From Haliclystus octoradiatus (taxonomy: Eukaryota; Cnidaria; Staurozoa; Stauromedusae; Haliclystidae): DNA of 64,000 nucleotides. The translations under genes and the position numbers were made by a program. Where the stretch lies: NCBI GenBank assembly GCA_916610825.1, contig OU744454.1:583001-647000 (forward strand), read 5' to 3'. Shown here in pieces: positions 3,997 through 20,567 of the stretch (position 1 is the first letter of the stretch; every line of letters starts with the position of its first letter). The notes under the pieces are model-generated. The model was not told where the DNA came from. It ran no database searches and saw nothing but the letters and a program-made list of their open reading frames with translations.

Positions 3997-6900
3997 ATGA
4001 TGCGATGGCAATTGGCAAGATATCTGCTAGTTGCGTTGGCCGCTTGCGTCGCACACTCACAAGGTAAGTTTATAAAGCCAAACTTTGTCTGAATAATGTC
4101 ACTCTTTATGTGAGGAGACATCAGTAAAAATGGATACAAATTAATTTCCACTTGTCTTATAATAGCATCCTATCCATTGGTATGTTGCTCTACTAACTTC
4201 ACTTGTTTGCGGTATTGTTAGTCAATGCGAAAACATAGCGCGTTTGATTTGTTGCGGTAGAAATAAAAAAAGGTTTTAAACATTACATTTACCGTTTTAT
4301 TTCTACATCATGTTTAATTTTATTATCTTGAATGCCTGTTTTATCTATCAAATGTAAAATACAAAGACAATAGATCATTAAAAAGGTCGTTTGATCAGGT
4401 ATCTGCCTGTACCCCCGTCTTAAGATCACGATCGAACCACCCCAATGCGGGAAACACCATTTGGCTTGGATTTGCTTCATCTACATCTACATTCAAGTGC
4501 AAATATTTAAATATTTAAAGAGCGTTTGAATGAAATGAGATAGACCGTCATGAAATACTATTTATTCAAATTGAATCCCGATTACATTTCAATGTCATTT
4601 TATTTAAAATTATTCTCATCGCGTGTTATTTAAAAGAGGGTGAGAATTGATACGAATAAAACTTGTGCTGTGCGTGTTATAAACAATGTCTGAATGTGCC
4701 CCGAGGGAATTCAATTGCCGGTTGTGGTATTTCGCCAGTTTGTCACCCTTTCATTGCCACTTTCAAAATTTGTACAATGCAATTTTTATCTTGCCTTTTT
4801 TGGCTTCGGGCGGTGTTAATTCTCTTGCGGTTTCAACAAGAAATGTGCTTCTCCCTTTTCAAACAATACATAAATAAAGACGTGACTTTAAGCCTAAAGT
4901 TGGAAAAAGATCAAAATTATATAGAAGCTTATATGGAAGCATCGCTTATGCCGTTAGTCAATAATATACTTGGCCTTTTTACCATATTAAATACTTATGT
5001 CGGCTCATAAATACTTAATATCGATCCTATATTCTTAACCCTGTCCTTCACCTTTCGAAGTGATCTTTCCTGCATCGTAGACCTACAAAATCATGTCATG
5101 TTTTACCAAAATATGTAATTGCATTAATGTAGCGTACAAAAGCATGTCTACAAACATCATTTATTTTATAGCTACGCTATTTCACCCCCAAATTAATCTA
5201 ATGGCTCCCTGTGTGGTTATTTTGACATGACGTCATTCTATCAAATCAAAAAGTAATAAATAATTAAATGTTGTCATGGTAATCCTTGAATATATAAGGT
5301 CTCAACTCAACTTGATATATTGCAATGACTATGAAGTGTCTATGATTTAACAATGACTTTGTTTCTTTCACATTTCCTCTGGTCTCTAAGTGATTTATTT
5401 TATGAAAAAGAATCTGGCTACAGTGCCAAATATCATTTATCTTACATAATTAATTCAGCCAATTATGTATTATTCATTTCCAAACAAAAATGGGCATTTG
5501 TGCATATCTTATTTGCAAACTTGACCCAATGACTTAATTGATGTGCACTCCGACACCTTTTGTTGCCAAAATGCTGTAGACTCGTAATGTAAGATATCCA
5601 ATACCTCTTCATCATATGTCTATCTAACAATCCATTGTCATGGGTTAAGATTTCCAAGTGTTATTTTCGATCAAACAAAATCATTGATTTTTGTATTATG
5701 TTGAAGTAATAAATTTTTAAGAAGTCAATCATTTGATTAATCAACAATCTATTTGATATTATTAAATATCCATTAGAATATTCATACCAATGATAATTGT
5801 TTTTTAATATTCTAATCTTTAGAACGATGTAATCACAAAGTAGACCTGGTGTTTGCTATCGATGCATCAGGCAGTATTAAACCAAATGATTACGAAGAGA
5901 TTAAAAACTTCACAAAGGATCTCATTGACACCTTTCAAATTGGAATTGATAGATCTCATGTTGGTGTAATGGTTTATGGTGAATACGCAGAAGTAGCTAT
6001 AAGACTAGATGAAACATTTGATAAAGAAGAATTAAAGGCGAAAGTAGACAACATACCATACCAAGGTTATCGCACGGCAATTGATGATGCTTTGAGGCTG
6101 GCAGATTCAGATATGTTTTCCTTAAAGGGTGGTGTTAGACAGGGAGTGCCGCACATTCTAATTGTATTAACTGATGGAAAATGTACTGTGTGCAGCCAAA
6201 GTCTGGATGCTGCATCTGAACCTTTGAAAAGCCGTGGCGTCAATATCTTAGCAATTGGTGTTACTAACAATGTTGATGATGAAGAATTGAGACAAATTGT
6301 TTCTGATCCATCACCAAGTCACATATTTAAAGTAGAAAGATTTGATAAATTAAAAACGCTTATCAGAGGATTAACAAACAGAAGCTGTGCTGGTGAGCTT
6401 TTGTTCTTATTTTTTACTTGTGTGTATTTCATATGAATTTTGCAAATAACATTGGCTTTGAACAACTAATTAAGATAAAAGCTTACATAATGATCAACAT
6501 TTTACTGATATCCCAAACCGGAATATAATTTAATTTGTTTATCACAATCCATTTTTACCCCCTGTTTGAATTGATTGATGCAGCTAGATGACTGTAGTTG
6601 AATAATTCTGTGAAATAAATTATACCCTTCAACATATTACTTTTATACCCTTTAACATATTACTTTTATGTTTTGCAGCTAAAAAGGGAAAGTGTCCATT
6701 AGCAGTCCCTCAAAATCAATGCCCAGAAGGATTCAACAATGTTTGCACAGGAGACAGTTCTTGTCTTGGCGATGCAAAATGCTGCTATAATGGTTGTGGA
6801 AAGTCTTGTACATATCCTCTCCTTGGTATGTGTGTTAACTGTGTTAAATACTTGTTTATTATGTTAAAGATGTGTGTGATCAATGTCACTCTATAATCCT

Positions 6901-20567: not shown

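Follow-up and report, generated by a model that had tools for sequence, protein, structure and literature searches.

What kind of chain is encoded by a gene that joins vWA and WAP domains to the NC1 domain of collagen IV, and from which ancestor does such a chain descend? This question is raised by a locus of the stalked jellyfish Haliclystus octoradiatus, which lies in the window analyzed here (the whole stretch of 64,000 nt). A collagen of comparable makeup, Hcol6, is said to have been first described by Zhang and others in 2007. Hcol6 of Hydra and other medusozoans is a network-forming collagen with a collagen-IV-type C4 C terminus, WAP and VWA domains, and a long COL domain with interruptions (PMC9966395). 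According to PMC12549020, its triple-helical sequence is broken by multiple vWFA domains, and Nematostella has two type IV collagens but no Hcol6. PMC5120351 groups Hcol1 to Hcol6 as type I-like, contrary to PMC9966395. For the staurozoan Calvadosia, one Hcol6 is counted in the cited Hcol6 literature. The original prediction that no such chain had been described could thus not be upheld, since the Hcol6 chains of Hydra and other medusozoans are of this kind (PMC9966395, PMC12549020).

A 47-exon gene of the Hcol6 type

The gene was rebuilt by hand at positions 3997..20567 of the plus strand and comprises 47 exons. They encode 3,045 aa in 9,138 nt (stop counted), with a single, terminal stop codon and GT-AG borders in all 46 introns of the hand-built model. 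Coordinates, exon number, length, and domain order of the continuous gene that had originally been predicted were all reproduced. Splice sites were picked with the reading frame and Gly-X-Y as guides; the open frame is therefore partly a product of construction and proves little alone. Better support for the model is provided by its intron agreement with the neighboring collagen IV gene (see below). As judged from the sequence, the gene appears intact, and it forms one coherent model. Pfam profiles detected VWA (6 stretches, E=3.5e-223), Collagen (18 stretches, E=9.8e-150), C4 (NC1) (2 stretches, E=2.7e-73), and WAP (2 stretches, E=7.4e-15) in the encoded chain, in agreement with the predicted collagen IV NC1 end, six vWA domains, two WAP domains, and location of three vWA domains within the helix.

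From the N to the C terminus, the chain begins with exon 1 (3997..4063), which carries the start codon and a signal peptide (recognized by eye) and ends in phase 1. It is followed by a vWA-WAP-vWA-WAP-vWA block consisting of vWA1 (5823..6392), WAP1 (6679..6825), vWA2 (6922..7488), and WAP2 (7577..7729), each encoded by one exon, and of vWA3 (8057..8727), which is encoded by two. Linker exon 8 and the 7S-like start exon 9 (8804..9000) lead into the helix, whose first segment starts with exons 10 to 13 (9091..9628) and continues as interrupted Gly-X-Y sequence through exons 14 to 31 (9714..13414). Three vWA domains are set into the helix: vWA4 (one exon, 13539..14126), vWA5 (two exons, 14727..15477), and vWA6 (two exons, 16076..16949). 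They are separated from each other by helix segments 2 (14211..14646, 118 aa) and 3 (15782..15991, 70 aa). Helix segment 4 occupies exons 40 to 45 (17031..18875) and runs on into exon 46; exons 46 and 47 (18954..20567) encode the end of the helix and the NC1 domain. Within helix segment 4, intron 40 (17255-17365) contains a 36-base unit (aacaaagtgctcgat...ttttggtagtcag) repeated ∼3 times in tandem, as counted by eye.

With its tandem C4 end (two stretches), an interrupted helix of 1,476 aa, and two WAP and six VWA domains, three of them inside the helix, the chain resembles Hcol6 as it is described in print. Judged by this described architecture, the Haliclystus gene is a further member of the Hcol6 kind, here with its complete exon layout.

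A head-to-head partner with a collinear helix

A search of the whole genome with the C4 profile, in which every initial candidate was scored, yielded six matches, which belong to two NC1 genes located next to each other on opposite strands; the search takes each exon separately in six frames, and a derived NC1, such as that of spongin-like short-chain collagens, could escape it. The second gene lies on the minus strand, with its ATG at window position 2255. Its 5′ part occupies positions 1..2255 of the window, beyond which the gene extends to C11:576484; the hand-built model has 32 exons and encodes 1,742 aa. The protein consists of a Cys-rich start (GGCRSCNNVC), a helix of 1,481 aa without vWA domains, and an NC1 domain, and is a canonical collagen IV chain of the Hcol4 type. 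The two genes are arranged head to head, and their start codons are 1,741 bp apart (2256..3996); this interval presumably serves as a shared divergent promoter region. Head-to-head pairs of collagen IV genes are known from Nematostella, Trichoplax, and bilaterians (PMC5395295, PMC12141075). The Hcol6 descriptions consulted make no mention of a place head to head with a canonical chain. A literature search found no statement of Hcol6 as a head-to-head second collagen IV chain, with most subscription journals outside its coverage, and is weak evidence of novelty; the passages of PMC13098435 and PMC7853314 that were consulted contain no vWA-bearing collagen IV.

With vWA4 to vWA6 removed, the helix of the Hcol6-type chain measures 1,476 aa, versus 1,481 aa in the partner, and a CxxC motif is present at helix position 496 in both chains. 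A helix of this length also fits the ∼1,400 aa expected of a collagen IV chain. Of the 27 non-triplet pieces parsed in the Hcol6-type chain, 25 were compared as helix interruptions, after removal of the start at the N terminus and of an artefact, one residue long, where vWA6 joins the helix; in the partner, 22 of 23 were compared, after removal of the start. Fourteen of the 25 were located within 5 residues of a partner interruption; the other 11 had no counterpart within that distance. Circular shifting gave a mean of 4.1 matches and did not reach 14 in any of 20,000 draws (∼1,400 distinct shifts exist), while uniform placement reached 14 in 2 of 20,000 draws. Intron positions showed a similar picture. 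From the 7S exon to NC1, 18 of 33 introns matched a partner intron within 5 aa and in the same phase (mean by circular shift, 3.0; 18 reached in 0 of 2000), and 15 had no such partner counterpart. Moreover, the helix opens in both genes with an exon run of 45, 90, 45, and 63 nt (exons 10 to 13 and partner exons 4 to 7, respectively), and an intron follows GYSFLM in the NC1 domain of both. The collinearity of helix length, interruptions, and introns indicated that both genes go back to an old duplication of a single collagen IV gene.

As a weak indication, two of the three internal vWA domains entered the helix no more than 3 residues from an interruption of the partner (vWA4 after helix residue 803, with a partner interruption at 804; vWA6 after residue 991, with one at 994), for which the chance is ∼0.026 under a criterion set after the fact. 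The entry site of vWA5, after helix residue 921, is off any partner interruption (the nearest is at 899).

Retention of helix length and of many interruptions despite the inserts is what would be expected if the Hcol6-type chain and its partner must pair, and on these sequence grounds we lean slightly toward their co-assembly. Alternatively, Hcol6-type chains might form homotrimers apart from the canonical chain, with 18 vWA domains per molecule. Three equal chains would avoid one-sided bulges of the helix, the vWA domains could pack together, and the kept collinearity could reflect common ancestry only. Against this, the helix lengths differ by just 5 in ∼1,480 residues and many interruptions are unmoved despite three inserts, and the divergent shared upstream region would suggest joint expression. 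We therefore regard homotrimers as a tentative possibility.

Exon structure and origin of the vWA and WAP modules

Phase-1 introns lie on both sides of each of the eight vWA and WAP modules, whose lengths are all multiples of three (in gene order, with the WAP modules in second and fourth place, 570, 147, 567, 153, 585, 588, 591, and 588 nt); the two exons of vWA3, vWA5, and vWA6 each form one phase 1-1 unit. In these three domains, the dividing intron is located just upstream of the strand leading to TDG. Symmetric phase 1-1 units are a mark of exon shuffling, by which the modules apparently entered an old collagen IV chain. If all eight modules are skipped, the remaining exons still form one open frame (1,782 aa). 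This frame would also permit alternative splicing, with the long form restricted to certain tissues or stages and a plain, alpha2-like chain destined for the basement membrane, and the frame-neutral phase of every module agrees with it. However, exon shuffling leaves symmetric exons as well, and skipping of vWA3, vWA5, or vWA6 requires that two exons be removed together, so that we consider this explanation unlikely.

The MIDAS columns D.S.S, T, and TD are invariant in all six vWA domains (e.g., DASGS/T/TDG in vWA1 and DSSSS/T/TDG in vWA2). This motif has a metal-site role, and the vWA domains of the Hcol6-type chain probably bind ligands in a metal-dependent manner.

The genome contains at least 110 vWA matches. 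A DNA pattern designed by hand to cover part of a WAP domain gave no match. In a tree of 17 vWA domains (the 6 of the Hcol6-type gene and 11 picked from fetched loci, with partial or repeated matches left out), vWA1 to vWA3 grouped with vWA domains of an Hcol3-like locus and one other, and vWA4 to vWA6 with other vWA domains of the genome. The support for this division (82/85) was below the 95 mark, and long-branch warnings were raised (vWA3 with one Hcol3 vWA); the tree thus hints weakly at two sources for the modules. Two large vWA-coding arrays were also observed. In the first, at C8:17442189-17467052, near-identical single-exon vWA domains stand in tandem; two types alternate, the period is ∼1,495 bp, and one of the types is present at least 13 times. 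In the other, at C10:937378-990835, two types alternate over part of the array with a period of ∼1.65 kb.

When a profile of the six vWA domains was compared to solved chains by whole-chain score, collagen VI alpha3 came out on top, followed by proximal thread matrix protein 1; the alpha3 score sums its many vWA domains. Collagen VI has no C4-type NC1 and carries its vWA domains on both sides of a short helix. The Hcol3-like locus (C5:15070700-15091034) contains three WAP, four vWA, and COLFI stretches (assumed to be one gene), which are the numbers described for Hcol3. Hcol3 shares the alternation of WAP and vWA domains with the Hcol6-type chain, but has a COLFI instead of a C4 end, and its modules are described as N-terminal (PMC12549020).

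NC1 domain, 7S-like start, and chain type

The NC1 domain of the Hcol6-type chain comprises two C4 repeats with 12 Cys and two HSQ motifs. Residues R76, N77, D78, E175, and R179 (numbered after the aligned alpha1 chain), to which we ascribe a presumed chloride role, are kept in the NC1 of both Haliclystus chains. PMC5395295 describes the chloride motif as conserved in Cnidaria. Because the 12 Cys and the chloride residues are kept, NC1 likely directs the choice of trimer and joins the molecules end to end. Both sulfilimine residues, Met93 and Lys211, are present in the partner; the corresponding region of the Hcol6-type chain reads PMMP, and its Lys is located behind a 3-residue insertion. An_peroxidase domains are present in the H. 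octoradiatus genome. The 7S-like start of the Hcol6-type chain (PCGPTKC) has two Cys versus three in the partner, with the exon pattern kept.

Like a collagen IV alpha1/alpha2 pair, the two chains have two C4 repeats with 12 Cys and an interrupted helix of ∼1,480 aa and are encoded by head-to-head genes. The Hcol6-type chain differs in its additional six vWA and two WAP domains and in having fewer 7S-like Cys, whereas the partner has stayed plain. The Hcol6-type chain is thus a variant collagen IV, not one of textbook 7S, helix, and NC1 only.

We then considered which of the two chain types the gene represents. The best single-chain PDB matches of its NC1 were alpha5 (302 bits), alpha2 (298), alpha4 (297), and alpha1 (287), and the partner NC1 scored best with alpha5 and alpha1. 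An extra residue in GARGTC of the Hcol6-type chain is alpha2-like, yet it also occurs in the fly chain labeled alpha1 (presumably Cg25C), and is therefore no clean alpha2 marker. In an NC1 tree of 9 rows, the Hcol6-type chain was unplaced, and the two Haliclystus chains did not fall on alpha1 and alpha2 sides. This missing split would fit a later duplication of the canonical chain, by which Hcol6 arose without being an old second chain. Such an origin appears quite improbable, as the gene occupies the same head-to-head place as in Nematostella, Trichoplax, and bilaterians (PMC5395295, PMC12141075), and as the genome-wide C4 search found no other NC1 gene that could be the second chain. From gene position, rather than from the NC1 tree, we infer that the Hcol6-type chain descends from the second collagen IV chain of the ancestor, the one in the alpha2 position. 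The original prediction, in which vWA and WAP domains were added to a collagen IV chain, agrees with the NC1 domain, helix length, interruption map, introns, and head-to-head partner. Overall, we assign a probability of roughly 80% to the reading that this is an Hcol6-type chain that originated from the old second collagen IV chain, as the head-to-head partner of the Hcol4-type chain.

Intron 8 and further features of the window

If intron 8 (8866-8955, 90 nt) is read through, a stop closes the frame after two codons, and AATAAA hexamers are present at 8874 and 8878. AATAAA is present in 5 further introns among the 46, with 12 hexamers in all. A short secreted vWA-WAP protein might possibly be made via intronic polyadenylation in this intron. 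The same stop and hexamers would fit two adjacent genes, one for a secreted vWA-WAP protein and one for collagen IV, that were fused by the model. Only 228 bp, exon 8 included, lie between vWA3 and the 7S exon. The two ATGs located there in frame with exon 9 lead, as judged by eye, to a quick stop or a nonhydrophobic start, so that a separate collagen would be without a signal peptide. We rejected two fused genes as highly improbable on the basis of this short gap and the missing signal peptide, of the three further vWA domains located inside the helix regardless, and of the described Hcol6 architecture, in which WAP, VWA, and a C4 end are joined in one chain; AATAAA is, moreover, not confined to intron 8.

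Further downstream, the window contains an open reading frame on the plus strand that matches the winged-helix domain of an RNase H2 subunit (Ydr279; 33438-33758), and a tandem repeat that is open on both strands (36623-36974), with an 11-residue unit, SNLTTVDILNE, on the plus strand. Two open reading frames on the minus strand match the C- and N-terminal parts of glycosyltransferase family 10 (fucosyltransferase; 37022-39714, likely one gene), and further minus-strand frames contain a ZP-N domain (44394-45122), a Dickkopf N-terminal Cys-rich domain (46517-46900), and TPR repeats (47749-48186).

Proposed origin and mode of working

In the scenario that we propose, the ancestral second collagen IV chain would have taken up the vWA-WAP block between its signal peptide and the 7S region, and three further vWA domains would have been inserted in phase-1 introns of the helix. 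The resulting Hcol6-type chain would assemble via NC1, probably in a trimer with the plain partner. The two ends of a vWA domain lie close together; a vWA domain can therefore loop out of a single chain while the helix continues. Each internal vWA domain would thus loop out of one chain and leave the register unmoved. The six vWA domains, with their metal-site motifs intact, may attach to further proteins of the matrix or to receptors on cells, by which the mesogleal collagen IV network would become a multi-site anchor. We hold the chances to be about even that all of this applies together, i.e., that the medusozoan second collagen IV chain turned into Hcol6 and forms trimers with single-strand vWA loops, kept register, and built-in adhesion sites.

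Collagen IV is usually seen as a design that is fixed throughout the animals. Here, one of the two chains found took in eight modules, apparently by exon shuffling, and despite this gain its helix length and much of its interruption map stayed as in the partner. If the two chains do co-assemble, the Hcol6-type chain would show how a triple helix can accommodate folded domains and yet stay in register, and Hcol6 would be a remodeled second collagen IV chain rather than a separate collagen type.
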